A stretch of DNA of 44,187 nt from a virus. The notes under the pieces are model-generated. The model was given only the letters and a program-made list of their open reading frames with translations. It had not been told where the DNA came from and searched no databases. Below are positions 2,212 to 44,187 of this stretch, one piece after another. Positions within the stretch are counted from its first letter, which is position 1; each line of letters begins with the position of its first letter. The stretch covers positions 1-44,187 of IMG/VR virus record IMGVR_UViG_3300042876_000083. One strand, written 5' to 3'. The position numbers and the translations under genes are program-made.

Positions 2212-2219
2212 CTATCTAG

Positions 2220-2294: not shown

Positions 2295-2322
2295 CATTTA
2301 AGTCAAGAAAGGGATAGCCGAG

Positions 2323-2820: not shown

Positions 2821-2830
2821 GGAGTAATAA

Positions 2831-3694: not shown

Positions 3695-3703
3695 GAGTAA
3701 ATA

Positions 3704-17350: not shown

Positions 17351-17360
17351 GTGGTATAAT
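17332..17360 (+). promoter_or_regulatory. Promoter of the structured RNA 1
   Basis: TATAAT at 17355-17360 with an extended TGG element; a weak TTGTAG lies 17 nt upstream, inside the terminator. The block GTGGTATAATCAAA is the start of the 71-nt module shared with 30025-30095. Confidence 0.8.
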
Positions 17361-17365
17361 CAAAG

Positions 17366-17753
17366 CGTGGTCGAGAGGGCTGCATCAAGCGGTTCGTTTG
17401 CGTAGGCAACTTGGCTGCATAGTAAGTATCACGATGGTTGGACATGCCTAAAGTTTCGACTGACCGCTAATGCCAACCGAACTGCTCCGAGTGTCAAAGG
17501 CACGGAAGGCCTGGTAAACGGCGAAGTCGCAAGCGACTTTACCAACGGCAACGGGGTCGTATCCCTACCGGAGCAACTAAGTTGTGTGTTTGAGGAAAGT
17601 ACGGACGGGGCTGACATCCCCCAAAAAAATCCGTAGCCCTGTCAGTGGGTCACGATCCTCCTCTTGTCAAGGTTGGTTTGGCCGCCTAGCGACCAAAACC
17701 ATAAAACAACTGTCCACAACAAGCGAGACCGTCCTTCGGGGCGGTCTTTGCTT
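17366..17753 (+). ncRNA. Structured non-coding RNA 1, about 390 nt
   Basis: It has its own promoter and ends at a UUCG-capped terminator, with no credible ORF. Helices seen: closing stem CGTGGT/ATCACG (17366-17371 with 17428-17433) around a conserved core; GGTTGG/CCAACC; AGCGGT in the core complementary to ACCGCT (a possible long-range pairing); TGCTCCG/CGGAGCA enclosing AAGTCGC-AA-GCGACTT; ACGGA/TCCGT enclosing GGGG/CCCC whose loop CTGACA is complementary to a downstream TGTCAG (pseudoknot candidate); GAGGA/TCCTC; and GTTGTG/CACAAC closing the last domain. I do not recognise an Rfam class. The first 71 nt from the promoter recur at 30025-30095. Confidence 0.72.
17726..17753 (+). terminator. 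Intrinsic terminator of RNA 1
   Basis: 9-bp stem AGACCGTCC/GGGCGGTCT with a TTCG loop, then TTTGCTTT. Confidence 0.92.
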
Positions 17754-21562: not shown

Positions 21563-22182
21563 CCGTCAAATTGATTTGTGGTGATTGTCTCGAAGTGATG
21601 AAGTCGATACCGGACAAGAGTATTGATGTGGTGATTACTGACCCGCCTTACGGGATAGGGAAGGATGGACAAAAAGAATCGTCTGGCGTTCATGGAGGGC
21701 GCAAGGGATATGAGTTTAAGGGATGGGATAGTATTAGACCAGATAAGCAGGTGTTTGATGAAATCCAAAGAGTTTCACAAAATCAAGTTATATGGGGCGG
21801 CAATTATTTTGCTGACTATTTGCCCGCAACTTCAAAATGGCTAGTTTGGGATAAAGGGCAAAGAATAAATCAATCCGATGGTGAATTAGCGTGGACATCT
21901 TTTTCAGGCGCACTAAGAATATACACATTAAATCGGGTGGCAATAATGACCGATGGCGCCATTCATCCTACTCAAAAACCAGCATCTCTTATGAGATGGG
22001 TAATTTTGAACAACACTCGCGAAGGTGATACCATCCTCGACCCCTTCATGGGTTCTGGCACAACAGGAGTAGCGTGTGTCCAGACAGGCAGAAACTTCAT
22101 CGGAATAGAGATTGACCCAGAATATTTCGCAATTGCTGAAAAGAGAATCAAGGATGCACAACAGCAGATGAGGCTATTCTAA
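21559..22182 (+). CDS. DNA methyltransferase 1 (beta-class N6-adenine/N4-cytosine type)
   Basis: The product is 207 aa. The catalytic motif DPPY (TDPPYGIG) lies near the N terminus and the SAM-binding motif DPFMGSGTT near the C terminus, an order typical of the beta class. HPTQKP, the usual motif X region, is present. It methylates bases in DNA, probably adenine, using SAM. It shares nearly identical ends with the second methyltransferase at 23064. Likely function is protecting phage DNA against host restriction. Confidence 0.9.
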   Translation: MTVKLICGDCLEVMKSIPDKSIDVVITDPPYGIGKDGQKESSGVHGGRKGYEFKGWDSIRPDKQVFDEIQRVSQNQVIWGGNYFADYLPATSKWLVWDKGQRINQSDGELAWTSFSGALRIYTLNRVAIMTDGAIHPTQKPASLMRWVILNNTREGDTILDPFMGSGTTGVACVQTGRNFIGIEIDPEYFAIAEKRIKDAQQQMRLF

Positions 22183-23015: not shown

Positions 23016-23063
23016 TCAATGGCAGCAGGGATTCCCGTATCTACAAGAGATTGCGAGGATGAT

Positions 23064-24023
23064 GTGAGCGTAGAATTGATATGCGGAGATTGTCTGGAAG
23101 TGATGAAGTCTATCCCTGACAAGAGTATTGACGTGGTGATTACTGACCCGCCGTACAACATCGGAAAAGCAGAATGGGACAAGATAGATAACTATATTGA
23201 GTGGTGCGGTTTGTGGATTACAGAATGCCAAAGGGCGCTAAAAGACAATGGCTCTTTTTATTTCTTCCATAACGACATGGAACAGATAGCCAATTTGATG
23301 TTATGGATTAGGAATAATACAAAGTTTGTTTTCAAACAGTTTATTGTCTGGAATAAGAGATTTGACGGTGCTAGTAACAAAGGTTTTCTTGATGGGTTTG
23401 TGGTTCCCGAAGGATTGCGAAATTATCAACAAATGGCAGAATATCTTTTGTTTTACACATTTCAAGACGAAACAGGGTTGACAACCGTCAAACTAGATGT
23501 GAATAACTTTCCTACGCTTCGCCAGTATTTCAAGGATTATCAAGAAGCGCTGGGGATGACAAAACTTGAAATACTCGAAAAGATAGGACAACAAGCAGAC
23601 CATTGTTTCAGATGGGGTTCAAGTCAATGGGATATGCCAACAAAAGAAACTTACGAAGCACTGGAAAAACTACCAGTAAAAAATGAGTTCGTGCGCCGTG
23701 AGTATGGGGACTTGCGCCGTGAGTATGAGGACTTGCGCTATACGTTTAATAACCAGAAAATGCATCATAGCGTTTGGAATTATGAAATAGCTCCACGATG
23801 CGAACACATTACACCAAAGCCAGTCGATTTACTTGAAAACATTATCAAGCATTCGAGTAATGAGAATTACACCATCCTTGACCCCTTCGTGGGTTCTGGC
23901 ACAACTGGCGTCGCATGTGTCCAGACAGGTAGAAACTTTGTCGGAATCGAGATTGACCCCGGATATTTCGCAATCGCTGAAAAGCGTATTCACGACGCCC
24001 AACAACAAATGAGGCTATTTTGA
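23064..24023 (+). CDS. DNA methyltransferase 2 (beta-class)
   Basis: The product is 319 aa. The GTG at 23064 (GAGGA upstream) aligns with the start of methyltransferase 1; the ATG at 23019 has no ribosome site. It has TDPPYNIG at the N-terminal end and DPFVGSGTT at the C-terminal end. The first ~30 and last ~55 residues are almost the same as in methyltransferase 1, while the ~230-residue centre is different and carries a 21-bp tandem repeat (RREYGDL/RREYEDL). A different target sequence is likely. Confidence 0.88.
   Translation: MSVELICGDCLEVMKSIPDKSIDVVITDPPYNIGKAEWDKIDNYIEWCGLWITECQRALKDNGSFYFFHNDMEQIANLMLWIRNNTKFVFKQFIVWNKRFDGASNKGFLDGFVVPEGLRNYQQMAEYLLFYTFQDETGLTTVKLDVNNFPTLRQYFKDYQEALGMTKLEILEKIGQQADHCFRWGSSQWDMPTKETYEALEKLPVKNEFVRREYGDLRREYEDLRYTFNNQKMHHSVWNYEIAPRCEHITPKPVDLLENIIKHSSNENYTILDPFVGSGTTGVACVQTGRNFVGIEIDPGYFAIAEKRIHDAQQQMRLF
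23693..23734 (+). repeat. 21-bp tandem repeat inside methyltransferase 2
   Basis: Two 21-bp units (23693-23713 and 23714-23734) differ by one base and encode RREYGDL and RREYEDL; a third partial unit follows. It preserves frame and would lengthen a coiled-coil-like heptad. Confidence 0.85.
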
Positions 24024-30010: not shown

Positions 30011-30034
30011 TTCTTAGAAATATCGTGGTATAAT
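30007..30034 (+). promoter_or_regulatory. Promoter of RNA 2
   Basis: TTGATT (30007-30012), 16-nt spacer, TATAAT (30029-30034) with extended TGG element. It is the start of the 71-nt module shared with 17351-17421. Confidence 0.78.
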
Positions 30035-30038
30035 CAAA

Positions 30039-30136
30039 TTGTGGTCGAGAGGGCTGCATCTAGCGGTTCGTTTGCGTAGGCAACTTGGCTGCATAAATAC
30101 CACAACGGGACTCCCCACATCGGGGAGTTTCTGTTT
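30039..30136 (+). ncRNA. Small structured RNA 2 (shares 5' module with RNA 1)
   Basis: Promoter, about 100 nt of non-coding leader and terminator. The 30025-30095 block matches 17351-17421 with three mismatches in 71 nt. The closing helix TTGTGGT/ACCACAA (30039-30045 with 30098-30104) replaces CGTGGT/ATCACG of RNA 1: the outer pair changes from C-G to T-A and a G-T becomes G-C, so base pairing is kept. The core contains TTGC-GTAG-GCAA. Unlike RNA 1 it stops right after the core. Confidence 0.75.
30109..30136 (+). terminator. Intrinsic terminator after RNA 2
   Basis: 7-bp stem ACTCCCC/GGGGAGT with ACATC loop, then TTCTGTTTGT. It lies between the RNA 2 promoter and the packaging/late genes. 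Confidence 0.85.
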
Positions 30137-31954: not shown

Positions 31955-33274
31955 ATGGGCTTACGTGAAATATTGCAAGGCTGGCTACTTCCGGCGGAAG
32001 TGTGGCATCAGGTCAAAGAGGTGACACAACAGCGCAATTATCGTACTGGAAAACAGAAGCGACAGTTAAAGATCGTTCCCTTCCAGCCGGACGATAATAT
32101 CGTGATGAACTTCACCGGGCTTGTCATCGACAGGTCTGTGTCTATGCTATTTGGTAAAGGGATTGATACACAATTCGACACAGAGACAGCTCAAGAGTAT
32201 ATCGACATGGTATTAGAGGCGAACCGTGAGGAGTTGCTTCTGCATAACATGGGGCTTACAGGTAGCGAGGCGGGTACGTTCTACGTCAAGATTGTCCCCG
32301 AAGGATTGATCTACAAGGGCGTTGTGTATCCGCGCCTGATTGTGCTAGACCCAATGCTGATGACGATTGAAACCCAGCCGAATGACAAAGAGAAGGTGAC
32401 TGCTTACCGCATTGTCTACATTGTCAAAGAGAATGGCAAAGAGGTCATCAGGCAGGAACTCACCAGACTAGACGGCGAGAAGTGGGTAATTGAATCAGGC
32501 ACAATCGAGAATGATAAATTCGCTATCGAGAAGACAACCGACTGGCTGTATCCATTCCCACCAATCATTCACGGTCAGAACCTGCCTAACATCGAAAGCG
32601 TCTACGGCGATCCCGACGTAACCCAGGATGTTGTAGAGTTGCAGGATAGACTAAACCTCACGTCGTCTAACATCTCAAAGATTCTACGCCTGCACGCTCA
32701 CCCTATCCTGATTGGCAAGGGAATGGCGGGCGGGTCTAATAATTCTGTGGACATTGAACCGGGTAAGTTACTAAAGACAACCGCAGAGCAGGATGTCCAT
32801 TCTGTCGAAATGCAGAGCGACTTGGCTTCATCCCAGCAGTATCTAACCACCATGCGCCAGGCGCTATTCGATGTTACCCGAACAGTCGATATATCTAGCA
32901 TGTCAGATAAACTAGGGGCGCTAACTAACTTCGGTTTGAAGGTCTTATATCAAGACGCTATCGCAAAGAACAACACTAAACAGGCGTTATATGGGGAGGT
33001 GCTGGAGGAGTTGTTTAGGAGATTGCTCATTCTCAATAACATGCCGGAAGAACACGGTGAAATTATCTGGCCTGATGTGCTGCCAGCCAATGATGTGGAA
33101 GAAATGAACTCGCTGAAGACAGAGCTGGAATTGGGTCTTGTGTCGAAGGAAACCGTTGCCACAGAACGCGGTAGAGACTTCGAGCAGGAACAAGAAAAGA
33201 TTGGCAATGAAAAATCACAGGGAGACAACATTGGGGAAATGTTGCTACAAAACTTTAACAGAGGTGGTCAATGA
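31955..33274 (+). CDS. Portal protein (SPP1 gp6-like)
   Basis: The product is 439 aa. FTGLVIDRSVSMLFGKGI and VELQDRLNLTSSNISKIL, with ALTNFGLKVLYQDAI near the C-terminal end, are typical of the SPP1-type portal family (phage_portal_SPP1). It forms the dodecameric ring for DNA entry and exit. It overlaps the next gene by 4 nt. In the usual order MuF follows; here the sugar module intervenes. Confidence 0.85.
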   Translation: MGLREILQGWLLPAEVWHQVKEVTQQRNYRTGKQKRQLKIVPFQPDDNIVMNFTGLVIDRSVSMLFGKGIDTQFDTETAQEYIDMVLEANREELLLHNMGLTGSEAGTFYVKIVPEGLIYKGVVYPRLIVLDPMLMTIETQPNDKEKVTAYRIVYIVKENGKEVIRQELTRLDGEKWVIESGTIENDKFAIEKTTDWLYPFPPIIHGQNLPNIESVYGDPDVTQDVVELQDRLNLTSSNISKILRLHAHPILIGKGMAGGSNNSVDIEPGKLLKTTAEQDVHSVEMQSDLASSQQYLTTMRQALFDVTRTVDISSMSDKLGALTNFGLKVLYQDAIAKNNTKQALYGEVLEELFRRLLILNNMPEEHGEIIWPDVLPANDVEEMNSLKTELELGLVSKETVATERGRDFEQEQEKIGNEKSQGDNIGEMLLQNFNRGGQ

Positions 33275-34140
33275 CAGACAACTTTCCACGGCAACAAATA
33301 GCGAGCGAGTGGATTGACCTTGACAATTTGAGTACCAGGATAACGGACAACGGCGGTACGGCTCAAGGCGTGAAATTTGTAGACGGTAAGCCACGTGTTT
33401 CTTCCATGCCATATACCTACGACATAGCGGAGGGGAATATCAGTGGACATGAATCATGGATGAAGATAGGCCATAATGGGGCAACCGGAACCGCAGAAGC
33501 GGACGTCTGGAGCAAAACGGGCGTTTATGTGTTTCCTGGAGCCGCGCAGCAGATGACATTCTTTTCAAGCGATAATACGAATGACAAGGCTGGTGGAAAT
33601 GGCGCTTTGACAGTAAAGATTTACTATCTTGATGATGCGTGGGCAGAACACACAGAAGTTGGCACGCTAAATGGTACGGCGCTGGTAAACACGGTTGCAA
33701 CTAACATCTACCGCGTCAATGGGTTTAGGGTAGAGTCAGCCGGAACGACAGGAAAGCCCGCCGGCAATCTTTCTCTTACCAACACGGCTGGCGCGGTGAC
33801 GTATTCATATATCTCTGCGGGATACACGAGAGCGAGAAACTCCGCTTATACTGTTCCCGCAGGAAAAACGCTTTACGTCACCCAGGCCACGTTTAGTTTC
33901 GGGTATGCTGCCAACCAAACATACTATGCGCGTCTTTACACTAGGGCAACACAGAACGACGGCGTAAGAACTCCTGGAATATTCTACCCTTATACAGAAG
34001 TGATCTGCGCCAACTCTGTTGCGCCCATTCACTTTGACGTGCCCACTAAACTTGTAGAGAAAGTGGATATAAAGGTTAGTGTGATTGCGGGGTTTACTGG
34101 CGCGGCATCCGTTTCCCTGCGAGGATGGCTAGAAACTTAG
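33271..34140 (+). CDS. Beta-rich structural protein (probable virion component)
   Basis: The product is 289 aa. After a short N-terminal segment it shows SYDIAEGNISGHESWMKIGH-like and WSKTGVYVFPGAAQQM blocks, then IYYLDDAWAEHTEVGTLNG, IYRVNGFRVESAGTTGKPAG, and a second beta domain (YTRARNSAYTVPAGKTLYVT). This double jelly-roll-like pattern is recurrent in environmental phage virion genes. It may decorate the capsid or neck. No enzymatic motif. It lies between the portal gene and the sugar module promoter. Confidence 0.6.
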   Translation: MTDNFPRQQIASEWIDLDNLSTRITDNGGTAQGVKFVDGKPRVSSMPYTYDIAEGNISGHESWMKIGHNGATGTAEADVWSKTGVYVFPGAAQQMTFFSSDNTNDKAGGNGALTVKIYYLDDAWAEHTEVGTLNGTALVNTVATNIYRVNGFRVESAGTTGKPAGNLSLTNTAGAVTYSYISAGYTRARNSAYTVPAGKTLYVTQATFSFGYAANQTYYARLYTRATQNDGVRTPGIFYPYTEVICANSVAPIHFDVPTKLVEKVDIKVSVIAGFTGAASVSLRGWLET

Positions 34141-34190: not shown

Positions 34191-35141
34191 ATGTCTTATT
34201 GGACTGACCGCAACGTATTTGTCACGGGCGCTACTGGACTGGTTGGCTCTCACCTCGTCAAGAGATTGGTGGATGATGGCGCCGATGTCGTAGCGCTCGT
34301 GCGCGATTTTGTACCAAACTCCCATTTAGTTAGAAATGGTTACTATAATAAAATTCGGCGCGTCCTGGGTGACATCGTAGACCGCGACATTACAGAAAGA
34401 ATCGTCTGTGAATATGAGGTTGATACAGTATTTCACCTTGCCGCGCAGACACAGGTTTACGTTGCCAACAAATCCCCTTATGGAACATTGAATACCAACA
34501 TCATGGGGTCTGTGTCTGTCTTAGAAGCGTGCAGGAACGCGGGTGTCAGGCGCATGGTCGTGTCGTCAAGTGATAAGGCTTACGGCGATGCTGGCAAGAT
34601 TTACACAGAGGATATGGCGCTCAATGGGATTCATCCTTACGAAGTGTCAAAGTCTTGTGAGGACATGATAGGACGTTCTTATAGTAAGTCGTTTGATATG
34701 TCGATTGCAGTTGCTAGGTGTGGGAACATCTACGGCGCAGGCGATCTAAACTTCAGCAGACTGATTCCAAAGACCATCCGCAATATCATCAGGGGAAAGA
34801 AGCCTGAGATTTACGGTGACGGGGGCATGGTCAGAGATTACCTGTATATTGACGATTGTGTGGATGCTTATATGTTGCTGGGTGAATCAGGTAACGTGGG
34901 AGCGTATAACTTCAGCGGAGAAGAACCTACCAACGTCAGAAATACCGTTCAAATGATTTGCGATATTATGGGTATAGAATTTGATGCGGAGTTTCTAGGT
35001 ACTCGTAACGAGATCGATTCACAATGGCTTGACATTACGAAGGCAAAGAAAGAATTGGGATTCCTGCCAAAGTATAAACTGGCAGACGGATTGGTAAAGA
35101 CTATCGAGTGGTACAAGGGATTCTTATGCGAACAGGGATAA
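34191..35141 (+). CDS. CDP-glucose 4,6-dehydratase-like SDR (RfbG/DdhB-like)
   Basis: The product is 316 aa. Extended short-chain dehydrogenase: NAD site GATGLVG at residues 13-19, SSSDKAYG at 125-132 (the TSDK region of CDP-glucose dehydratases), catalytic Y150-x3-K154 in PYEVSK, and the late RCGNIYGAGDLNFSRLIP block typical of RfbG. The reaction would be dehydration of an NDP-hexose, giving the 4-keto-6-deoxy sugar. It is first in the sugar operon and starts downstream of its own promoter. No partner cytidylyltransferase is present, so activated glucose must come from the host. Confidence 0.86.
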   Translation: MSYWTDRNVFVTGATGLVGSHLVKRLVDDGADVVALVRDFVPNSHLVRNGYYNKIRRVLGDIVDRDITERIVCEYEVDTVFHLAAQTQVYVANKSPYGTLNTNIMGSVSVLEACRNAGVRRMVVSSSDKAYGDAGKIYTEDMALNGIHPYEVSKSCEDMIGRSYSKSFDMSIAVARCGNIYGAGDLNFSRLIPKTIRNIIRGKKPEIYGDGGMVRDYLYIDDCVDAYMLLGESGNVGAYNFSGEEPTNVRNTVQMICDIMGIEFDAEFLGTRNEIDSQWLDITKAKKELGFLPKYKLADGLVKTIEWYKGFLCEQG

Positions 35142-36235
35142 CGCTCAAAGTACCCGTAAGCGGGCAACTCGTAGACCACCGCGAGAAAGAAGCGGTAGCC
35201 AATGTGGATATGTTCGGGTCGTCTGTCGTGCCTGAGTTTGAACGCGCCTTCGCTAAGTTTATGGGGTACAAGTATGGCGTGTTCTTGAATAGCGGTTCGT
35301 CTGCAAACCTGCTACTATTGGGAAGCCGCGAGTTTGATTCGCCACCGTTGGTATCTGGTTGCTCATTTCCTACGACGATCAACCCACTTATTCAATCAGG
35401 ACACAGGCCGTATCTGGTTGATATTGAGTTGGGTACATACCTGCCAAAACAGGTAGACGTAGCCTGTCACTTCTTGGGTAATTTCTGCTATTCCGGCGAC
35501 GTGTTGGATTCTTGCGACGGGATGTTTCCAGGCAAGGATACCCGTTCCTGCTCATTCTCGTTCTACCCGGCTCACTTTATGACAACCTGCGAGGGCGGGA
35601 TGATTTGCACAAATAGTTCCAATGAGTACATGAAATATAAATCTCTGAGGGATTGGGGGCGTGCTTGCTGGTGCGAGCCTGGTGTGGATGATACCTGCGG
35701 GCATCGGTTCGACCACCAGGTAGACGGCATTGAATACGACCACAAATATACTTATGCGAGAATTGGCTACAACCTAAAGGCAACTGAGATGCAAGCGGCT
35801 ATGGGTTTAGTCCAGTTGTCTAAACTCCCCGCGTTCATAGAACAGCGTATTATCAACTTCAACTATCTCTATGCTGCATTGTTGAAACTGGAAGACTTCT
35901 TTATACTGCCAAAGTCTACGCGAGTAAATACGCCGTGGTTTGGATTCCCGCTTACCTTGCGTGACAATTGCGCATTCACGCGCAGGGAAATAACCATGTA
36001 CCTTGAATCGCAGGGGATAGCCACTAGACTTATGTTCGGCGGGAATATCACCAGACAACCAGCCTATCATGCGCTGAAACTCTACCATGACCCGCTCCCG
36101 AATTGTGACAAGGTGATGAAGGATGGTTTCTGGTTCGGGTGCTGGCACGGGTTGAATCAAGACCAATTGGATTACACAATCGAGACTATTTATGACTTTG
36201 TTAGCGGCAACCGAGAAACAGCACGTATTGAATAG
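35126..36235 (+). CDS. RfbH/DdhC-type PLP and [2Fe-2S] 3-dehydrase
   Basis: The product is 369 aa. The ATG at 35126 has AAGGGA upstream and overlaps the previous gene by 16 nt. It is of the DegT aminotransferase fold but with H150 in the position of the PLP-lysine (SFYPAHFMTTCEGG) and four cysteines C130, C181, C183, C191 (C-x50-C-x1-C-x7-C; family C-x57-C-x1-C-x7-C). The stretch RDWGRACWCEPGVDDTCGHR matches E1 (CDP-4-keto-6-deoxyglucose-3-dehydrase). It removes the C3 hydroxyl with a reductase partner (E3), which is absent here. Confidence 0.9.
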   Translation: MRTGITLKVPVSGQLVDHREKEAVANVDMFGSSVVPEFERAFAKFMGYKYGVFLNSGSSANLLLLGSREFDSPPLVSGCSFPTTINPLIQSGHRPYLVDIELGTYLPKQVDVACHFLGNFCYSGDVLDSCDGMFPGKDTRSCSFSFYPAHFMTTCEGGMICTNSSNEYMKYKSLRDWGRACWCEPGVDDTCGHRFDHQVDGIEYDHKYTYARIGYNLKATEMQAAMGLVQLSKLPAFIEQRIINFNYLYAALLKLEDFFILPKSTRVNTPWFGFPLTLRDNCAFTRREITMYLESQGIATRLMFGGNITRQPAYHALKLYHDPLPNCDKVMKDGFWFGCWHGLNQDQLDYTIETIYDFVSGNRETARIE

Positions 36236-36995
36236 CGTCAATCTATCCCGCTTCTTTGGCGCGGATGTTTTGATAACTGGAGCGACGGGATTCTTTGGAA
36301 GTTATATCAGAGAGATACTATCAGACGTGGCGAACCTCACGATCTGCAACAGCGAGACATATCAACTCGCGCTCAATAACAACTATGATATGATATTCCA
36401 CTTCGCACCAGTAGACGTTGCGCCTGTCATAGAGTGCGCCCGTAGGACTTACGCCAAGATTCTGTATACTTCGTCAGGCGCGGTTTATGGCGGGGTACAA
36501 CATCGCGTCAAAGAGACTGATGAATGTAATCCAAAAACCCTATATGGCGGGAATAAACTCGTTCAAGAAAACGCATTACAGAGAGATTATGACAACTTCG
36601 TGATTGCCCGCCCATTCGCATTTTGTGGCAGGGGATTGAGAAACTACTTTGCTATTACCCACTTCGTAGAAGCAGCGGTACACAATAAACCGTTGCAAGT
36701 ATTCAACAACGGCAAGGCGGTGAGGTCGTATCTATATGGAGTGGATGCGGCTATCTGGTTTCTTGGACTCATGGATAAAGGGACGGGTATCTACAACGTA
36801 GGTTCTGAGATACCAACTTCGATAAAATCTCTGGCGCGTCTTGTATCTGAGCAGACAGGTGCTAAAATAGAATATGTGAAAGATGATTTTGTCGAACCTG
36901 CGCCGTACTATCTGCCGAATTGCCAGAAGGCGCACGAGTTGGGACTAAAGCAAAACTACACACTAGAATACGGACTGAGGAGAATGATAGCGTGA
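36192..36995 (+). CDS. NAD-dependent epimerase/dehydratase family reductase (SDR)
   Basis: The product is 267 aa. The start at 36192 overlaps the upstream gene by 44 nt (a TTG at 36228 is an alternative). It has the NAD loop GATGFFG (about residues 30-36), SSGAVYGG, the YGGNK version of the YxxxK motif, and a late RPFAFCGRGLRNY block. It is the smallest of the SDR set and has the size expected for a keto-reductase or epimerase acting on an NDP-deoxysugar; a YerF-like terminal reductase role is inferred from context. Confidence 0.82.
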   Translation: MTLLAATEKQHVLNSVNLSRFFGADVLITGATGFFGSYIREILSDVANLTICNSETYQLALNNNYDMIFHFAPVDVAPVIECARRTYAKILYTSSGAVYGGVQHRVKETDECNPKTLYGGNKLVQENALQRDYDNFVIARPFAFCGRGLRNYFAITHFVEAAVHNKPLQVFNNGKAVRSYLYGVDAAIWFLGLMDKGTGIYNVGSEIPTSIKSLARLVSEQTGAKIEYVKDDFVEPAPYYLPNCQKAHELGLKQNYTLEYGLRRMIA

Positions 36996-37213
36996 CAGAA
37001 ATTGATACTAGAACAGAGCAAGAGAAATGTTTAGAGATTAAAGACATAGATGGACTTATATTGGCCTTGCAAATTCACCGAGAGAAGCACGGCAATATCC
37101 CTGTCTATATAGATTTAAGCGCAGGGCAAGAAGAGGGATGTTATGATATTGATGCCGTTCTTTATGCAACAGATGAATACGGCGAAGAATCTGTTGATTT
37201 GATTGTTTGGTAA
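36992..37213 (+). CDS. Small hypothetical protein in the sugar module
   Basis: The product is 73 aa. The GTG at 36992 overlaps the upstream TGA (GTGA) with GAGGAG before it. It contains IKDIDGLILALQIHREKHGN followed by IPVYIDLSAGQE, a small alpha/beta domain common as a separate phage protein. No function assigned; its position between sugar genes may be accidental. Confidence 0.55.
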   Translation: MTEIDTRTEQEKCLEIKDIDGLILALQIHREKHGNIPVYIDLSAGQEEGCYDIDAVLYATDEYGEESVDLIVW

Positions 37214-37227
37214 TTAGAGGAGGATAA

Positions 37228-38241
37228 ATGAGAAATTGCCCTGTATGCACTAGTTCAAAAAGAGAGTTATCGTTTACAAGTACGTTCAAAACACCCGACG
37301 GCTGGCCTCTGCCAACGCACATTGATTGGTATGTCTGCTCCGATTGCGGGATGCTCTACGGTGACGGCGACCTCACACAAGAAATGATGAACGAGTATTA
37401 TGTCAAGTATTATGGCTATGGGATCAACTCGAAAGACGTAGAAGAACGCCTGTCTGGAATCGCCGCACAGATTGGCGCACGTTTCCCAACGACTACCAGG
37501 TTTGTGGACTTTGGCGGATCTGGCGATGATGGTAAATCGCTCTGTGTTGAACGGCTAAAATCAATCGGCTTCACAGAAGCGTATAACTTGAACGCTGGCG
37601 AACCTATCCCGCCCTGTGACATCCTGCTGGCCTCACATGTGTTGGAGCATGTGTACTCGCTTGACGAAACCATGACAGAGATTACAGGGGCTTTGGCACA
37701 AGATGGCCTATTCATCGTAGACGGGCCGGATTCTACCGGGCTTGTCAATGAGTGGGGTATGCCGATGCTTGACTTCCATACGAAGCATCTCAACCACTTC
37801 CGGCTTCTTGATTATCTAAAACTCATGGATAGATACGGCTTTGAGTTGGTCGAGATCGTGACATATCGTGATATTCGCTCCTCGCATAAAGCGCCATGCT
37901 ATCGGATGTACTTCAGGCACCTGGATACCGCAAAGGCATCCATGCTACACGTGACTGTAAACATCGAGGAGCGAGTCGAGAAGCTGAAACAGATTACATT
38001 CCCCGTAAACATTTGGGGCATTGGCGATATTGCATGGGTGCTGTTATCGCAGGTCAAATTAGACATTCTGGATTACATTGACAACGACCCAGCCATGCGC
38101 GGTTCTACGTTTGACGGAAAGCCTATCGTTGAACTACCTACCAACGATGCACCTATCCTTATTGTTGCACAGGGTCAGCGCAGCAGGTTGATTGACCGGA
38201 TTCGTGGGCTGGGATTGACTAACGAGGTGATTGAGATATGA
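37228..38241 (+). CDS. Sugar C-methyltransferase-like protein
   Basis: The product is 337 aa with a GAGGAGG site. N-terminal zinc site C4-x2-C7 and C37-x2-C40, then a SAM-binding domain (RFVDFGGSGDDG motif I, LASHVLEHVYS), then a C-terminal Rossmann-like part (FPVNIWGIGDIAWVL, LDYIDNDPAMRGSTF), the three-part architecture of the NDP-keto-sugar C-methyltransferase family (TylCIII/NovU-like). It likely adds a methyl branch at C3 of an NDP-4-keto sugar. Confidence 0.82.
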   Translation: MRNCPVCTSSKRELSFTSTFKTPDGWPLPTHIDWYVCSDCGMLYGDGDLTQEMMNEYYVKYYGYGINSKDVEERLSGIAAQIGARFPTTTRFVDFGGSGDDGKSLCVERLKSIGFTEAYNLNAGEPIPPCDILLASHVLEHVYSLDETMTEITGALAQDGLFIVDGPDSTGLVNEWGMPMLDFHTKHLNHFRLLDYLKLMDRYGFELVEIVTYRDIRSSHKAPCYRMYFRHLDTAKASMLHVTVNIEERVEKLKQITFPVNIWGIGDIAWVLLSQVKLDILDYIDNDPAMRGSTFDGKPIVELPTNDAPILIVAQGQRSRLIDRIRGLGLTNEVIEI

Positions 38242-39221
38242 CCTTCCAAACCGACAAACCGCTCGCTTATGCAAAGATGCAGAAGTTTGATGACATGCTC
38301 AAAGAGGGCAAGTCAATCGCTATCATGCAGCTTCAATACAACTACCAATGCAACTTCTATTGCTCCCATTGTTCGATTGCTGGATTCAGAAAACAACGAG
38401 GTAGGGGATTAGACGTTGCTAAGGTCGCCGAGATTGCCAAACAAGCAGACGAATACGGACTCGCTCAATGGGGATTGTCCGGTGGCGAACCACTTACGTT
38501 CCCTGAGTTACCGCGTCTTATAGAAGCCATGATGCCGGATAGATTCCACATCCAACTTGACACAAACGGCTGGCTGATGACCAAACACACCGCGTTATGG
38601 CTGAAGGATTACGGCGTGGACAAGGTGCAGATCAGTATAGACGGCATGGATGCAGAACAGCACGACTCATTCAGGAATAAACCAGGGTCGCACGCAAGGG
38701 CTATACAGGCTATGGAATACGTAAGAAATGCTGGGATGCAGTTACAGATTGCGACGGTGGTAGACCATGAACGCGCCAACTCTGAGGAACTCGAAAGGTT
38801 CTTCCAATTCTGTGCTGACAACGGCGGCGCTCCAAGTGTGGTGTATGCCAAACCAGTCGGTGAGTGGGCTGGTCGCTACGATCTACTCTGTGCCGCCGAT
38901 GACATTGCGAGGGTGAAATTTCTGCTCGCAAAATACGGCGGGTATGACCACACTTCCATTCAGCACAACAGAGACTTGGGATGCCTTGCGGTGAAGCGCA
39001 TCATCAGCATAACCGGATTCGGTGACGTTCTTCCCTGTCCGTGGATGTATACATCGCTGGGTAACTTATATGACGAACCGCTATCTGTTATACTAGAAAG
39101 GGGCATGAGATACTTCGGAGAACGAAGCGCGGTATGCAGGATGTCAGAGGACAGAGAGTTTTCAGATACTTACGGGTCAAAGATGAATGACTTGTTGCCG
39201 AGGATTGAAGAGGTGATGTGA
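38238..39221 (+). CDS. Radical SAM enzyme
   Basis: The product is 327 aa and ATGA-coupled to the upstream gene. The [4Fe-4S] site C38-x3-C42-x2-C45 (CNFYCSHC) is followed by WGLSGGEPLTFPEL, QLDTNG, VQISIDGMDAEQHD and a later Cys-bearing part (LGCLAVKRI, DVLPCPWMYTSLGNLY) that resembles a SPASM-like auxiliary cluster. The substrate is unknown. In this cassette it may act on the NDP-sugar (dehydration, epimerisation or C-C chemistry); this is inference. Confidence 0.85.
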   Translation: MTFQTDKPLAYAKMQKFDDMLKEGKSIAIMQLQYNYQCNFYCSHCSIAGFRKQRGRGLDVAKVAEIAKQADEYGLAQWGLSGGEPLTFPELPRLIEAMMPDRFHIQLDTNGWLMTKHTALWLKDYGVDKVQISIDGMDAEQHDSFRNKPGSHARAIQAMEYVRNAGMQLQIATVVDHERANSEELERFFQFCADNGGAPSVVYAKPVGEWAGRYDLLCAADDIARVKFLLAKYGGYDHTSIQHNRDLGCLAVKRIISITGFGDVLPCPWMYTSLGNLYDEPLSVILERGMRYFGERSAVCRMSEDREFSDTYGSKMNDLLPRIEEVM

Positions 39222-40285
39222 AGTTATCCGACTTCGTAATCGAGTACATATCTCACTACACCAAGCGAGTGTTTCTCGTTGTTGGCGGAGGAAGTATGCA
39301 TTTGAACGACTCGCTGGGTAAATCCAAACTGGAATATACCTGCATGATGCACGAGCAGGGAGCGAGCCTAGCCGCGCAGGCATACGGGCATATCACTAAC
39401 CAGTTGGGCGTGTGCATGACAACAACGGGGCCTGGCGCAACCAATGCGATTACAGGATGTTTAGCGGCGTGGATGGATTCAACCCCCGTGTTATTCATAA
39501 GCGGGCAGGTACAGACTTCACAGATGATGGGTACATCAGGCAGACGCTACGTTGGTTCGCAGGAATGCGATATTATCTCAATGGTCGCTCCGATAACGAA
39601 GTACGCCGTGACCATAACAGATCCTCACAAGATAAAGATAATCCTGGGGGCGGCAATCTACTCGGCAACGTCTGGACGCAAAGGCCCGGCGTGGGTTGAT
39701 ATTCCACTCGATATTCAAGCCGCCAACATCGAACCGTCGCAGATTCCAGAGTTTACCCGTGTCGAGAATGAGTGGCAGACATACCAAAAGGAGGAGGCGG
39801 TAAAGTTTGGGTGCAACGCCGTAAAAGAAGCCATCAGGAAGGCTTCTAAGCCCGTTATATTCGCAGGATACGGGATTATATCAGGTAACGCAGAGAAGCA
39901 ATTTTATACCCTGCTTGATAATCTCAAATGCCCCGTTCTGACGACATGGAAGTCATTGGGACTGTTATCTGATAACAACCCGCTTTATTGTGGCAGGCCG
40001 GGCGGTATCGGTCAACGCGCAGCCAACAAGATACAGCAGATGTGCGACTTCATCCTGGTACTCGGTGCTAAACTCGACTTCGACCAAACAGCCTACCAGT
40101 TGGCAACCTTCGCGCCGTTGGCAAAGAAGATCGTCGTGGACATTGACCAGGCAGAGTTGGCAAAGTTTGATGACTCATGGGTGAAGGTGAACGTGGATGT
40201 AAAAGACTTCCTGCTTGCGCTGAAGGTTGACGGTGAATATATGGCGTGGCTGAAACAGTGTAAAGAGATGCAAAAGGAGAATTAA
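39218..40285 (+). CDS. TPP-dependent acetolactate synthase-like enzyme, N-terminal subunit (right copy)
   Basis: The product is 355 aa. The GTG at 39218 overlaps the upstream TGA with AGAGGTGA before it. It carries the PYR domain with the catalytic Glu (E46 in MMHEQGASLAAQAYG), TTGPGATNAITG, and the central domain, then stops. The TPP-binding domain is in a second gene (40494). Single-chain relatives include AHAS and the YerE enzyme that adds an acetyl branch from pyruvate to CDP-3,6-dideoxy-4-keto-glucose. Together with RfbG/RfbH-like genes this suggests two-carbon branching. The partial left copy is 1-456. Confidence 0.86.
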   Translation: MKLSDFVIEYISHYTKRVFLVVGGGSMHLNDSLGKSKLEYTCMMHEQGASLAAQAYGHITNQLGVCMTTTGPGATNAITGCLAAWMDSTPVLFISGQVQTSQMMGTSGRRYVGSQECDIISMVAPITKYAVTITDPHKIKIILGAAIYSATSGRKGPAWVDIPLDIQAANIEPSQIPEFTRVENEWQTYQKEEAVKFGCNAVKEAIRKASKPVIFAGYGIISGNAEKQFYTLLDNLKCPVLTTWKSLGLLSDNNPLYCGRPGGIGQRAANKIQQMCDFILVLGAKLDFDQTAYQLATFAPLAKKIVVDIDQAELAKFDDSWVKVNVDVKDFLLALKVDGEYMAWLKQCKEMQKEN

Positions 40286-40494
40286 TGGCTTTGACATTTG
40301 ATGTTTTTGGAAAACCGATATTCATTGAAAATACTTATGTTGCTCCACCGGGTCATAAATACGAGGGTCAACTATGTAAAAAGACTAGGAACGGAGAGTA
40401 TGTCCCCTACGGAGAAACGCGCGAAGAAGTGGAAGTGTTGTTGGGTAAAAAGAAAGTTGGAAATTTTACAATCGTTGCAAGAATAGAAGACTAA
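40285..40494 (+). CDS. 69-aa ORF between the TPP-enzyme halves (right copy only)
   Basis: The product is 69 aa with AAAGGAG upstream; it starts 1 nt before the end of the N-terminal subunit gene (overlap of one base) and is joined to the next start by ATGA. The sequence begins MALTFDVFGKPIFIENTYVA and is a small beta-rich, basic domain. It is absent from the left copy, where the two halves overlap by TTGA. No family is recognised. It could be an accessory subunit or a passive insertion. Confidence 0.65.
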   Translation: MALTFDVFGKPIFIENTYVAPPGHKYEGQLCKKTRNGEYVPYGETREEVEVLLGKKKVGNFTIVARIED

Positions 40495-41108
40495 TGATAA
40501 ACAACTACCGTCTAGTTGAAGTCCTATCCGATCAATGCACCAAAGACGACGTAATCTCACCGGGGATGTCGTCTACTTGCGCCAACCACATCTGGCAGGC
40601 GTGGAAGGTCAAATACGGTCAGCGCTTCAGTTACGCTGGCGCTATGGGCGCTATGGGAACTGGACTTCCTGGTGCCATCGGTGCTTGTCTAGGTTCTGGC
40701 AGACGTAGGACTATTTGCGTGAATGGCGACGGCGGTTTCCAGTTGAATATTCAGGAGTTGGAAGTCGTCAAACGTCTGCAACTTCCAATCAAGTTTTTCG
40801 TACTGTCAAACGGCGGTTATGCCGCGATTATGAACACACAAAGAAAGTATTTTGACAGCCATTACGTTGGATGCAACGAGCCGGATTTTACCCTTCCTGA
40901 TATTCGCAAGGTCGCCGAAGCATACGGCATAAAGACTTACTTGATCGAGAATGACAACGAGATTGAGAAAGTCGTCAAGCAGGCGCTATCAGATAATCTT
41001 CCTTGTCTGGTGGAAGTCATTGAATCCAATGAGCAGGAAACGGCTATGAGGGTTGGAACTAAGATGGTTGATGGGAAACCAGTTAGCATGAAATTCGAGG
41101 AAGTCTAA
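40494..41108 (+). CDS. TPP-dependent acetolactate synthase-like enzyme, C-terminal subunit (right copy)
   Basis: The product is 204 aa, ATG start. It has GDG at residues 78-80 and N106-G-G for TPP/Mg binding. It is almost identical in protein sequence to the left copy (453-1067) but with many synonymous base changes. The TAA overlaps the MuF start (TAATG), so the sugar module is directly fused to the head operon. Confidence 0.88.
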   Translation: MINNYRLVEVLSDQCTKDDVISPGMSSTCANHIWQAWKVKYGQRFSYAGAMGAMGTGLPGAIGACLGSGRRRTICVNGDGGFQLNIQELEVVKRLQLPIKFFVLSNGGYAAIMNTQRKYFDSHYVGCNEPDFTLPDIRKVAEAYGIKTYLIENDNEIEKVVKQALSDNLPCLVEVIESNEQETAMRVGTKMVDGKPVSMKFEEV

Positions 41109-42088
41109 TGCCAAAGCCTGAGACAATTGTGGATTTAGTCAAGGCGCTGCGAGATGCCCTATCAAGGGCAGACGAAAAGGCGCTGAATCAAATCATCACC
41201 GCTTATGGGGATATGTATAAGCGACTCTTGCCACGTATTGACGCGCTGGCGTTGGAAATATCGACCATCGAAAATCCTACTCGCGGGCAGATTGCCAAAC
41301 TTACAAGATACAAAACGCTTATCTCTGAGATACAGCGTGAACTAAACACGTTTAGCGGATACGCAGAAACTGTTATGCGACAGACCAGCACGACGGCTAT
41401 CAAATACGGGATCGTGGACGCCAAGTCTATGGTGCTGGTACAAAACCCTGGACTCGCTGCAACCTGGAAGACATTGAACCCACGCGCTATAGAAGCATTG
41501 ATAGGATACATGCAAGAAGGTTCGCCGCTGATGAAGCGGATTGAACTACTCGCGCCTACACGGGCGCAGGCTGTGGCGAATACCATCCTCGACCAGGTGG
41601 CCTTCGGAGCGAATCCGAAGACTATCGCCGGAATGATTACCAAAGAGTTAGGGATAGGATTAACCGACTCTTTACGCATGACCCGCACCGTTCAAATATA
41701 CAGTTACCGTGAGGCAAACAGGGCTTCATACGTTGCCAATTCAGACGTTGTACAAGGATGGATATGGGTATCCGTTCTCGCTCCTGAGACTTGCGCGGCC
41801 TGCATGGCTTTACACGGCACAGAACACAGCAACGATGAAACGATAGACGACCATTACAACGGGGAGTGCTACGCTGTTCCTAAAGTGATCGGCGGCGGGA
41901 ATGATTATGCTGGACAAGGCGAGGCTTATTTCAATTCCCTATCAGAAGCGGAGCAGAAGAACGTGGTCGGCAATAGCACATGGGAATTGTTGAATAACGG
42001 GGATATTAGTTTCAATCAGTTGGTCAACCATCGTGAGGATGAGGTATACGGTTCGATGGTATCGGTTACGCCATATAAGGACTTATGA
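41108..42088 (+). CDS. MuF/SPP1 gp7-like minor head protein (right copy)
   Basis: The product is 326 aa, differing from the left copy by about four residues (for example TRGQIAK versus TRSQIAK). It keeps PETCAACMALHG and the DHYNGECYAVP metal-binding block. Same role as in the left copy. Confidence 0.85.
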   Translation: MPKPETIVDLVKALRDALSRADEKALNQIITAYGDMYKRLLPRIDALALEISTIENPTRGQIAKLTRYKTLISEIQRELNTFSGYAETVMRQTSTTAIKYGIVDAKSMVLVQNPGLAATWKTLNPRAIEALIGYMQEGSPLMKRIELLAPTRAQAVANTILDQVAFGANPKTIAGMITKELGIGLTDSLRMTRTVQIYSYREANRASYVANSDVVQGWIWVSVLAPETCAACMALHGTEHSNDETIDDHYNGECYAVPKVIGGGNDYAGQGEAYFNSLSEAEQKNVVGNSTWELLNNGDISFNQLVNHREDEVYGSMVSVTPYKDL

Positions 42089-42089
42089 C

Positions 42090-42221
42090 ATGCCACTCAA
42101 AAAAGGTAAGAAGAACGTCGGTAGTAATATAGAAAAACTCGAAAAAGAGGGCAAGAGCCACGCGCAAGCCGTCGCAATCGCCCTCGATGTTTCCAAGAAG
42201 CCGAAGAAAAAGAAACGCTAA
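42090..42221 (+). CDS. Small basic conserved phage protein (right copy)
   Basis: The 43-aa product starts with MPLKKGKKNVGSNIEKLEKE and ends with PKKKKR. Its ATG is at 42090, just after the MuF stop. In this copy it is followed by the reverse-strand lipoprotein gene rather than by the capsid promoter. Confidence 0.75.
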   Translation: MPLKKGKKNVGSNIEKLEKEGKSHAQAVAIALDVSKKPKKKKR

Positions 42222-42559
42222 TGCGACCAGAAACTAAATTCGCACAATTCCTCTGGAACTTCATCGCCAACACTTATATTTTCATATGCCAGTTGGGTTA
42301 CATGAATATAATATCCATTTGGTGAATATTGATTTTCTCCAATCAATATTTGATACTCCTCAATTGTTCCAGAAGATGCCACGCAATAATAATTATCTTT
42401 TGCGGTCATCATCATGTCGCACGACGGATCGGCTGGAGTGGTGACGATTTCCTTTTGCAGAACAAAAGAATTTTCGCACCTTTCTTGTTGCCTTTCGGAA
42501 ATTCCGCAAGAACACAGGAAGGGTAAAAACAAAAAACAAATCACAATAATTTTTTTCAT
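42218..42559 (-). CDS. Reverse-strand lipoprotein, moron candidate (right copy only)
   Basis: The 113-aa product has a signal peptide and lipobox (ICFLFLPFLCSCG, with Cys18 as probable lipidated residue), then a short secreted domain with several Cys (RCENS, PSCDM, YYCVA). GAGAGGA lies upstream, with a TTGAAA-16-TATCAT promoter at 42593-42620. It is inserted between the small basic gene and the scaffold operon and is missing in the left copy. Phage lipoproteins of this type often block superinfection by inhibiting injection or receptors; the role here is inferred. Confidence 0.78.
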   Translation of the reverse strand: MKKIIVICFLFLPFLCSCGISERQQERCENSFVLQKEIVTTPADPSCDMMMTAKDNYYCVASSGTIEEYQILIGENQYSPNGYYIHVTQLAYENISVGDEVPEELCEFSFWSH

Positions 42560-42592
42560 ATATCATCCTCTCGAAAATGTTTATTCAATAAC

Positions 42593-42620
42593 ATGATAAC
42601 ACAAAGTAATAAAATTTCAA
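42593..42620 (-). promoter_or_regulatory. Promoter of the lipoprotein gene, spacer-motif family (divergent member)
   Basis: On the - strand, TTGAAA, a 16-nt spacer beginning TTTTATTACTTTGTG, TATCAT. The spacer retains TTT-x-TATTAC-like order and the TTTGTG end seen in the other members. Confidence 0.62.
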
Positions 42621-42656
42621 CATGGTTTATATTTGTAGAACCTTTGTTATAGGTTT

Positions 42657-42666
42657 GTGGTATAAT
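42657..42666 (+). promoter_or_regulatory. Extended -10 promoter of the scaffold/capsid operon (right copy)
   Basis: GTGGTATAAT with TATAAT at 42661-42666. The leader up to 42786 keeps the conserved block and hairpin ACCAATC-GCAA-GGTTGGT followed by ATTTTTG (42733-42756). 42667-42786 contains no other gene. Confidence 0.75.
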
Positions 42667-42786
42667 AAGAGCGTGCGTGAGACGCGCATAATTCCGTAAG
42701 TCTAAATAGCCAACGCTACATAAACGTATCAAACCAATCGCAAGGTTGGTATTTTTGTATTCCAAAGAAAGAAAGGGATAGCCGAG

Positions 42787-43293
42787 ATGGCAAACGATCA
42801 AGATGTTCCCGTGACGGGACAAGAACCAGAACCACAAGACCCAGTGGTAACTCCTGCTGTGCAGGAACCGGAAACGGTTGAATCGTTGAAGGCAAAACTG
42901 GCAGAGGCAGAACGGAAAGCGCAAAACAAAACTGAGGAAGCGGAACGGCACTACAAGAAGTTATCGAAGTTCGAGGAGGAAGAAAAGAAACGGCAAGAAG
43001 CCGCCATGTCTGACCTCGAAAAAGCACAGAAGAAAGCCGCTGACTTGGAAGCCGAGAATCACAGGCTAAAAGTAGACTCATTGAAACAATCCGTTGCTGT
43101 GAAAGTTGGTTTACCTGAATCGCTCGCTTTGCGCCTGCAAGGTGAAACCAAAGAAGAAATCGAAGCAGACGCAAAGGCAATACTAGAAACTTTACCGAAA
43201 AAGAACGCTCCGCAACTTGACGCCACTAATCCCAACGGTGGACAACAGCGAACCGAAACTGATGCTGAAAAGCGGAAAAGGTTGGGACTCTAA
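42787..43293 (+). CDS. Capsid scaffolding protein (right copy)
   Basis: The product is 168 aa. The first ~30 residues (MANDQDVPVTGQEPEPQDPV) are unrelated to the left copy; from ETVESLKAKLAEAERKAQ on it is practically the same. It is a coiled-coil-rich scaffold. The N-terminal swap indicates exchange at about 42865. Confidence 0.85.
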   Translation: MANDQDVPVTGQEPEPQDPVVTPAVQEPETVESLKAKLAEAERKAQNKTEEAERHYKKLSKFEEEEKKRQEAAMSDLEKAQKKAADLEAENHRLKVDSLKQSVAVKVGLPESLALRLQGETKEEIEADAKAILETLPKKNAPQLDATNPNGGQQRTETDAEKRKRLGL

Positions 43294-43302
43294 GGAGCAA
43301 TA

Positions 43303-44166
43303 ATGACTACTGGATATAACGTTTGGGCAAATGTATCAGACATCGCCCAGCGCATCGAAGAAGACGCCCATTTCGTCGTCCGTGAAACCGCGACCATGCA
43401 AAACTTGGTCACGGTCTTCCGCGATCAGACCGGAATGAATGTGCGCCGTGGGTACAAGTACAATCAACTGACTGCAGTAGAAGTGAGTGACGCTGATGAA
43501 ATCACGTCAAGCACCTTCACCCCGTCGGCTGACCAGGACTTGACCCCCGCACAAATTGGTCTTGGCGCCTTTGTCTCCGATGCCCGCGCAGCCTCCATGC
43601 TGCCCGAAAATATCATCACCGATGTCGCGTCAGAACTCGGCCTCGCCGCGTCTGACAAAGTGGAATCAGACCTCGTTGGTTTGTTCTCAAGCCTGACTGG
43701 TGGAACCGTTGGTACTGCCAACACCGCCATCACCTGGGCCTGGGTGGCTGCTGCAATCGCGCAGGCCCGCAACGCCAACAAGAACTCTCGCGTTCCTCTC
43801 GCTTGTGTGCTTCATGGTTATCAGTACGCAGTTTTGGCTAAGGCCGCATCTGTCGCTGGTTCCTCACTTGCACAGGCTCCGAGTTACACCGAAGAAATGA
43901 CCCGCAGTGGATACGTCGCCACCTTCATGGGCGTGCCGATGTATCAGGTATTCGCGTCTGCTAACTCCGATGCCGACTTCTACGGCGGCGTGTTCCCGCG
44001 TAACGCTTTCGCACTTGACTGGCGCCAGCCTATCCGCATCGAACCTGACCGCAATGTGAAGCGCCGGGGTTATGACTTCGTGATGTCTGCTATTTACGCC
44101 AAAGGCGTGTGGCGCCCTGAATTGGGTGTGCAGATTCTTGCTGATGCTACTGCGCCCGCTGGATAG
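43303..44166 (+). CDS. Major capsid protein (right copy)
   Basis: The product is 287 aa. Same protein as at 2831-3694 with about eleven substitutions, mainly in the N-terminal tip (MTTGYNVWANVSDI) and around residues 196-222 (VATFMGVPMYQVFASANSDA). Surface-exposed positions of this kind vary in many HK97-fold shells. Confidence 0.85.
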   Translation: MTTGYNVWANVSDIAQRIEEDAHFVVRETATMQNLVTVFRDQTGMNVRRGYKYNQLTAVEVSDADEITSSTFTPSADQDLTPAQIGLGAFVSDARAASMLPENIITDVASELGLAASDKVESDLVGLFSSLTGGTVGTANTAITWAWVAAAIAQARNANKNSRVPLACVLHGYQYAVLAKAASVAGSSLAQAPSYTEEMTRSGYVATFMGVPMYQVFASANSDADFYGGVFPRNAFALDWRQPIRIEPDRNVKRRGYDFVMSAIYAKGVWRPELGVQILADATAPAG

Positions 44167-44175
44167 GAGTAAATA

Positions 44176-44187
44176 ATGGATCATATC
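44176..44187 (+). CDS. Start of the decoration protein gene (right copy, cut by the window)
   Basis: Only MDHI is visible. The upstream GGAG and the following bases match the left copy start at 3704. Confidence 0.7.

Follow-up and report, generated by a model that had tools for sequence, protein, structure and literature searches.

Why an uncultivated tailed phage should keep genes that probably make a rare sugar in the midst of its head genes is the question raised by the locus studied here, a seven-gene cassette located at positions 34191-41108 (plus strand) of the 44,187-base IMG/VR virus record IMGVR_UViG_3300042876_000083, the whole of which is referred to below as the window. In our view, the cassette probably encodes a YerE-type pathway making a nucleoside diphosphate (NDP)-activated, 4-C-branched deoxysugar used by glycosyltransferases encoded next to the major capsid protein (MCP) gene, and the sugar would most likely decorate the virion. 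The original prediction, which was made from the sequence alone, had already proposed a route to a branched NDP-sugar, and this part of it stands; it had overlooked the two glycosyltransferases and the location among capsid genes, as well as the fact that the thiamine diphosphate (ThDP) enzyme is broken up by domain and that the record has duplicated ends, which come from two strains. Related loci are designated below by L numbers.

The cassette and its enzymes

The open reading frames (ORFs) of the cassette are as follows:

34191-35141, plus strand: SDR1, an extended short-chain dehydrogenase/reductase (SDR) of the NDP-glucose 4,6-dehydratase type (Pfam GDP_Man_Dehyd, 1.7e-53)
35108-36235, plus strand: pyridoxamine phosphate-dependent sugar 3-dehydrase of the RfbH/DdhC (E1) type (PRK15407, 1.2e-96; best Protein Data Bank (PDB) structures 3bcx/3bb8, E1)
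36192-36995, plus strand: SDR2, an extended SDR (Pfam Epimerase, 2.6e-20; motifs YGGNK and TGATGFFG)
36920-37213, plus strand: small ORF between SDR2 and MT (about 73 amino acids, GTG start probably near 36992; no family)
37228-38241, plus strand: MT, a protein with a sugar C-methyltransferase fold (Methyltransf_23, 7.5e-12)
38238-39221, plus strand: radical S-adenosylmethionine (SAM) enzyme (Radical_SAM, 2.3e-23; CxxxCxxC plus later cysteines)
39218-40285, plus strand: TPP-N, the PYR and TH3 domains of the ThDP enzyme (TPP_enzyme_N, 1.5e-28; TPP_enzyme_M, 1.8e-30; HEQ at residue 45)
40285-40494, plus strand: 69-amino-acid ORF between TPP-N and TPP-C, present only in the right-hand strain copy
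40494-41108, plus strand: TPP-C, the PP domain (TPP_enzyme_C, 2e-33; GDG...NG from residue 78)

The seven intact enzyme ORFs, most of which overlap, extend from the portal side to the MuF gene, as expected from the predicted overlapping operon of six enzymes between portal and MuF, one extra ORF (33271-34140) being present after the portal gene. The families to which these proteins had been assigned were upheld in profile searches with Pfam, NCBIfam and PHROGs, and the E-values obtained, which range from 1e-12 to 1e-97, exclude chance matches to the enzyme classes. The same cassette was found at the same position among the head genes of related phages with diverged proteins: its order recurs in the sibling locus L003 (94-97% identical) and in L012 (proteins 35-63% identical), and it is therefore not an assembly error. 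No match at the DNA level was detected between the cassette and phage GenBank records, and since scans of viral contigs with single proteins (the radical SAM enzyme and TPP) yielded only the sibling, alignment queries were needed to find relatives.

The Pfam match of SDR1 and its motifs (TGATGLVG, SSDKAY, and YEVSK) are those of a 4,6-dehydratase-type SDR, in agreement with the glucose dehydratase originally proposed. In the second protein, H156 replaces the lysine that binds pyridoxal phosphate; this residue, which aligns with the E1 motif SFYPAHH, is invariant in six divergent phage homologues, as are the four [2Fe-2S] cysteines C136, C187, C189, and C197 (pattern C-Xn-C-X1-C-X7-C). The first cysteine spacing is 50, versus 57 in E1. 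The E1 structures (3bcx, 3bb8) score far above aminotransferases. The RfbH/DdhC-type dehydrase claimed is thus confirmed as to its type; since the protein is shortened, diverged, and below the NCBIfam RfbH equivalog cut-off (324 vs 423 bits), we call it E1-type rather than RfbH. SDR2, the gene of which adjoins RfbH in most relatives, is a candidate ketoreductase for the keto sugar or its branch.

The best PDB match of both ThDP chains is 8rph (184 bits for TPP-N; 105 bits for TPP-C, vs 74.5 for the next structure), which is JanthE, a characterised YerE-like enzyme (PMC12188165). In this comparison, which did not include YerE itself, JanthE outscored every acetohydroxyacid synthase (AHAS) for both chains. 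The ThDP-binding residues are complete over the two chains, with the Glu of HEQ on TPP-N and GDG...N on TPP-C. The two-chain enzyme initially described is retained, with JanthE as its nearest characterised relative.

The MT protein includes an N-terminal zinc motif, a SAM-methyltransferase domain and a C-terminal Rossmann domain (a three-domain fold). No solved relative was obtained by sequence search, and its placement comes from fold comparison alone: the 18 best structures found with Foldseek in the PDB for the AlphaFold model (pLDDT 83, pTM 0.67, the domain packing being uncertain) are the sugar C-3-methyltransferases KijD1, MtmC, and TcaB9, with E-values of about 1e-13 to 1e-11, as compared with 1e-7 for the next methyltransferase class. 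The resemblance to C-methyltransferases noted earlier is therefore upheld at the level of the fold. In the radical SAM enzyme, the cysteine residues C38, C42, C45, C249, C267, and C300 are invariant in four phage homologues.

The two small ORFs occur in short insertions. The insertion at 37005-37227, carrying the ORF of about 73 amino acids, is missing from L003, and that at 40282-40488 is absent from L003 and from the left-hand copy, where positions 446/448 correspond to 40281/40489. Neither ORF matched anything in PHROGs or Pfam, and the 69-amino-acid ORF has no relatives in the viral contigs. Both insertions fall exactly on gene junctions of the operon, and each occurs in one strain only.

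Repeated splitting of the ThDP enzyme

The ThDP enzyme is encoded by a single ORF in L048, L063, and L064, as in the bacterial loci L095 and L096. It is split into PYR+TH3 and PP in the window, L003, L017, and L019, into PYR and TH3+PP in L004, L007, L008, L012, L024, L067, L072, L091, and L185, and into PYR, TH3, and PP in L005/L006/L070. Overlap between the split ORFs is frequent, and distances of up to about 1 kb occur in some cases; in the window, the chains overlap in the left-hand strain copy and are separated by the 69-amino-acid ORF in the right-hand one. A frame-shift error was rejected, since the split recurs at domain linkers in both strain copies and in many contigs, which points to repeated domain-wise fission. 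Four changes of organization are required on the tree of the concatenated domains.

ORFs resembling GIY-YIG homing endonucleases were observed by eye in or beside the ThDP gene (L007:7585-8571 and L017:3767-4357), and enzymes of this kind are a possible route to the splitting of the gene. At L200:11631-12760, a two-chain ThDP enzyme has PYR and PP domains without TH3. The ThDP match found in H4 (MT835525, gut) has no cassette neighbours within the stretch examined.

Starting material and proposed pathway

No nucleotidyltransferase of the NTP_transferase family (PF00483) was detected in the window or in the records of 14 relatives (up to 60 kb), whereas the 14 control genomes were all positive; several of the relatives' records are fragments, and the missing gene is not proof of absence. 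Likewise, no E3 reductase of the Fer2 type (PF00111) was found in the window. The lack of glucose-1-phosphate cytidylyltransferase and E3 noted in the original prediction is thus borne out; presumably the host provides both the NDP-glucose at the start of the pathway and the electrons.

From these families and residues, we infer the following substrates and reaction order. Starting with host NDP-glucose, CDP-glucose being the likelier candidate, SDR1 would form the 4-keto-6-deoxy sugar, from which the E1-type enzyme, working with a host ferredoxin/flavin reductase, would remove the C3 hydroxyl. The two ThDP chains, assembled into an active enzyme, would decarboxylate a 2-keto acid and attach the resulting acyl group at the C4 ketone, the branch ketone might be reduced by SDR2, and the C-methyltransferase-fold and radical SAM proteins may modify the sugar further. 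The GT4 enzyme described below would begin a glycan onto which the GT34-type enzyme would transfer the branched sugar. The class of sugar, a branched deoxysugar derived from NDP-glucose, is well supported: the E1 residues, the JanthE matches and the C-3-methyltransferase fold all favour the branched 6-deoxy or 3,6-dideoxy NDP-sugar and the YerE-like route originally put forward.

Glycosyltransferases beside the capsid gene

Two glycosyltransferase genes are present on the 3' side of the MCP gene:

4181-5329, plus strand: GT4-family glycosyltransferase, just 3' of the MCP gene (phrog_2170, 9e-31; Glyco_trans_1_4, 2.2e-13)
5287-5967, plus strand: GT34-type GT-A glycosyltransferase (Glyco_transf_34, PF05637, 3.2e-07; DxD motif DTDA at residue 95)

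In the AF2 model of the GT34-type protein (pLDDT 87.8), the top Foldseek matches are 2p6w/2p73/2p72 (PBCV-1), and 6bsu was also retrieved. The closest solved structure is the first domain of PBCV-1 A064R (E 9e-12, vs 1.9e-8 for the next family), a domain which adds a sugar to the glycan on the major capsid protein of that virus (PMC9614988).

An alignment search of viral contigs with the MCP yielded 79 related loci, the genes of which were mapped with profiles built from seed loci. The GT4 gene after the MCP gene is nearly universal in these relatives, with or without the cassette. Covariance of the cassette with glycosyltransferases had been set beforehand as a test able to refute the prediction, and the outcome was favourable, with some exceptions carrying GT34 only: among 26 informative, de-duplicated relatives retrieved by MCP, every one of the 16 with the cassette has GT34, as against 0/10 of the cassette-free loci (Fisher p 1.9e-7). 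Five changes in the cassette occur on the MCP tree, and GT34 is concordant in every independent contrast, 3 of which are on supported branches. In L200, the backbone of which is different, the MT gene and then the ThDP genes come immediately after two GT34 genes. In L012 (17338-19359), the GT4 gene is interrupted in frame by an insert which starts with Cys and ends with His-Asn-Cys and which looks intein-like by eye.

The slot between portal or MuF and MCP contains the ThDP/RfbH cassette in many loci, although its order and content vary, and in most relatives the neighbours of the ThDP gene include sugar enzymes. In L186, the slot is occupied by a Gfo/Idh/MocA oxidoreductase and an SDR, NeuB occurs in L091 and L048, and an Epimerase_2/NeuC-like gene occurs with a B12 radical SAM gene in L063. 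In phages lacking the cassette, GT4 may be followed by different sugar genes, for example the GT2-family gene in L039. The rule that fits most of the loci is that sugar synthesis is encoded in the slot and transfer of the sugar by the genes after MCP. NeuB-family synthases lie near or adjoin the ThDP enzyme at L091:5703-6560, L048:2-784, and L095:5973-7484, and the 2-keto-3-deoxy acids that they produce could be donor substrates of the ThDP carboligase. The cultured Microcystis phage Mae-JY09 (L222, PP395641), the MCP of which is about 39% identical, shares the MCP, small ORF, GT4, SDR arrangement, and its slot has no cassette.

A scan of GTDB genomes based on the radical SAM protein picked out seven loci, in scattered phyla, with 31-45% identity; behind them came a long tail of weaker matches. 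In several of the bacterial loci, some cassette genes are found in a setting of the polysaccharide type: L092 carries the radical SAM gene, GT2, SDR1, RfbH, and a Bac_transf sugar transferase, L095 carries SDR1, NeuB, the single-chain ThDP enzyme, the radical SAM gene, and a B12 radical SAM gene, and L096 carries the single-chain ThDP enzyme, a C-methyltransferase, FkbM, and the radical SAM gene. Since bacterial versions of the gene set exist, the phage presumably acquired its cassette from a bacterial-type source.

Proposed acceptor of the sugar and alternative explanations

Based on the position of the cassette in the head operon, the MCP-adjacent glycosyltransferases and the PBCV-1-like fold of the GT34-type protein, we infer that the branched sugar would be directed to the virion. 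The main rival is that it modifies the host surface (O-antigen, capsule or S-layer glycan), a change of receptor which would result in superinfection exclusion or seroconversion. Seroconversion by phage glycosyltransferases is well known. YerE-like enzymes are known from sugars of lipopolysaccharides (PMC12247030), and homologous genes stand in bacterial polysaccharide loci such as L092 with its Bac_transf gene. Nevertheless, we regard the host surface as an unlikely destination: the cassette and the glycosyltransferases are embedded in head genes, the closest fold to GT34 is a virus-capsid glycosyltransferase, the genes scanned include no integrase, and neither a Gtr-type membrane transferase nor a flippase was present among the ORFs scanned, in which transmembrane segments were not systematically predicted.

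Phages also use nucleotide sugars to glycosylate their DNA, and the presence in the genome of DNA methyltransferases and of a Lar-like anti-restriction gene would suit a sugar placed on hypermodified bases as a protection against restriction; the fact that no hydroxymethylase or other base-priming gene occurs among the ORFs scanned, and that the cassette sits with the head genes, away from the replication genes, makes this quite improbable. It is still harder to believe that the ThDP enzyme is an AHAS supplying branched-chain amino acids, the other genes being unrelated to it. Although the nearest NCBIfam models are named acetolactate synthase, the scores are far under the equivalog cut-offs (246.8 vs 738 bits, for example), JanthE beats AHAS for both chains and the gene is linked to sugar enzymes in most relatives; an acetolactate synthase function was thus rejected on profile score and synteny. 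An assembly artefact or bacterial contamination is the least credible of all these explanations: the ends of the contig do overlap at 88-92% identity, joining two strains, and this join stands, but L003 and numerous independent phage contigs have the intact cassette as one unbroken stretch between portal and MCP, which refutes an artefact as far as the cassette is concerned.

Several observations weigh against a branched sugar for the virion as proposed here. The association with head genes may reflect mere tolerance of insertions at that place. The GT34-type protein is just 16% identical to the PBCV-1 enzyme. Significance was out of reach in the sign test on the tree contrasts (3 pairs, p 0.25). 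GT34 occurs without visible ThDP/RfbH in L173/L174/L191, L186, and L203, loci which came from a retrieval based on, and biased towards, GT34, and very diverged GT34 genes elsewhere could escape the profiles, for which the training set consisted of loci with the cassette. Regarding CDP-glucose as the starting sugar, SDR1 scores 188 bits with TIGR01181, the dTDP model, and 170 bits with TIGR02622, both values being under the equivalog cut-offs; its SSDK-Y motif resembles that of CDP-type enzymes. Lastly, SAM motif I of MT is unusual (FGGSGDDG), and in the clade of the window, Lys stands at the position of E224, the mutated residue of TcaB9, giving KH instead of the catalytic Glu-His pair EH in an alignment read by eye, so that the methylation activity of MT is uncertain; the homologues in L063/L064 keep the EH pair (by eye).

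A broader proposal, to which we give somewhat less than even credence, is that these phages form a lineage with a hypervariable sugar slot among the head genes, making varied activated rare sugars (YerE-type branched dideoxy sugars or, in other members, nonulosonate-type ones) which paired GT4/GT34 enzymes would transfer to the capsid, and having a ThDP heteromer composed of separate PYR, TH3, and PP chains.

Comparison with known systems

The enzyme families and the kind of chemistry are already known. The yersiniose A pathway (DdhB, DdhC/E1, E3, YerE, and YerF) and the erwiniose, caryophyllose, and JanthE systems are relatives with YerE-like branching. A 4,6-dehydratase, an E1-type 3-dehydrase, a YerE-like ThDP carboligase and an extra SDR reductase are common to the yersiniose A pathway and the phage, whereas in the phage the cytidylyltransferase and E3 are not encoded, radical SAM and C-methyltransferase-fold genes are added, the ThDP enzyme consists of two chains and the genes are located in a head operon. 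Sulfopyruvate decarboxylase is a two-subunit ThDP enzyme in which one chain has the PYR domain and the other the PP domain. The KbDH-alpha/beta type also has two subunits (PMC12247030). The phage enzyme differs from these in being of the AHAS/YerE type, keeping TH3 and being cut at either or both linkers across relatives.

Mycobacteriophage glycosyltransferases modify capsid and tail proteins, and virion glycosylation is established there, according to a passage of PMC12363180 citing Freeman et al. 2023; here, in contrast, a sugar-making pathway is also encoded, and virion glycosylation is a proposal. PBCV-1 A064R shares the GT34-type GT-A fold and belongs to a virus-encoded glycan machinery including methylation (PMC9614988), but PBCV-1, a chlorovirus, is a eukaryote virus and its enzyme, at the low identity given above, uses a different donor sugar. 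Cyanophage nucleotide-sugar clusters such as that of Synechococcus phage S-H68, which is annotated with a CDP-4-dehydro-6-deoxyglucose 3-dehydratase, likewise place E1-like and dehydratase genes of a phage in a cluster for glycans; S-H68 is a different type of phage, however, its E1 is about 32% identical and no ThDP enzyme is annotated in the stretch examined. A search of open-licence papers revealed no phage with a pathway in which a sugar is branched by a ThDP enzyme. What is new is the phage setting, together with the coupling to glycosyltransferases on the MCP side, the addition of radical SAM and C-methyltransferase-fold genes and the splitting of the ThDP enzyme by domain.

If the proposal is true, phages build rare branched sugars for their own particles, beyond borrowing host sugars, and virion recognition, adsorption or survival could change. 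The loci would also offer highly divergent YerE-like carboligases, which are wanted for chiral tertiary alcohols, and the one-, two-, and three-chain versions would form a natural series for learning how much division the enzyme tolerates before it ceases to function. Since the MCP-GT4 arrangement is shared by the cultured Mae-JY09, the question of a virion glycan can be tested now.

Organization of the window

The window encodes a terminase, portal, MuF, scaffold, MCP, tape measure, and tail fibres, an endolysin and a holin, and an Erf recombinase, a DnaC loader and the DNA methyltransferases and Lar-like protein mentioned above. The features flanking the cassette and those of the second strain copy are as follows:

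31955-33274, plus strand: portal
33271-34140: further ORF between portal and cassette
41108-42088: MuF
43303-44166, plus strand: MCP (phrog_544/phrog_267), with a second copy at 2831-3694
1-456, plus strand: second strain copy of the 3' part of TPP-N (88% DNA identity to 39836-40281)
453-1067, plus strand: second strain copy of TPP-C (protein 99% identical; phrog_11199), overlapping TPP-N, the 69-amino-acid ORF being absent

The first 3.7 kb (1-3715) and the last 4.3 kb (39836-44187) are 88-92% identical, the left-hand copy comprising the end of TPP-N, TPP-C, MuF, scaffold, and MCP. The window is mostly 95-99.5% identical to the sibling contig IMGVR_UViG_3300044712_000182 at about 1-16 kb, versus only 89-93% at 32-44 kb (portal, cassette, and MCP). 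The contig thus circles a unit of about 40 kb and joins two strains: the record, a mosaic in which two strains of one phage are joined or in tandem, is not one clean genome, the cassette at 34-41 kb belonging to the second strain and that of the first being partly present at 1-1067. The sibling contig has a single MCP copy, with portal, cassette, MuF, scaffold, MCP, small ORF, GT4, and GT34 uninterrupted. As regards clues to the host, the window contains no tRNAs, and no prophage was found.

An insertion of about 480 bp between MuF and scaffold, absent from the left-hand strain copy, includes a minus-strand ORF (42218-42559) with a lipoprotein-like signal and no PHROG match, which may possibly be a moron or a superinfection-exclusion lipoprotein. 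Two phrog_67 DNA methyltransferase genes (21559-22182 and 23019-24023) lie on either side of the DnaC-like gene and have a 92-bp stretch in common (87% identical). A 71-bp direct repeat, 96% identical, occurs at 17351-17421 and 30025-30095, 12.7 kb apart.

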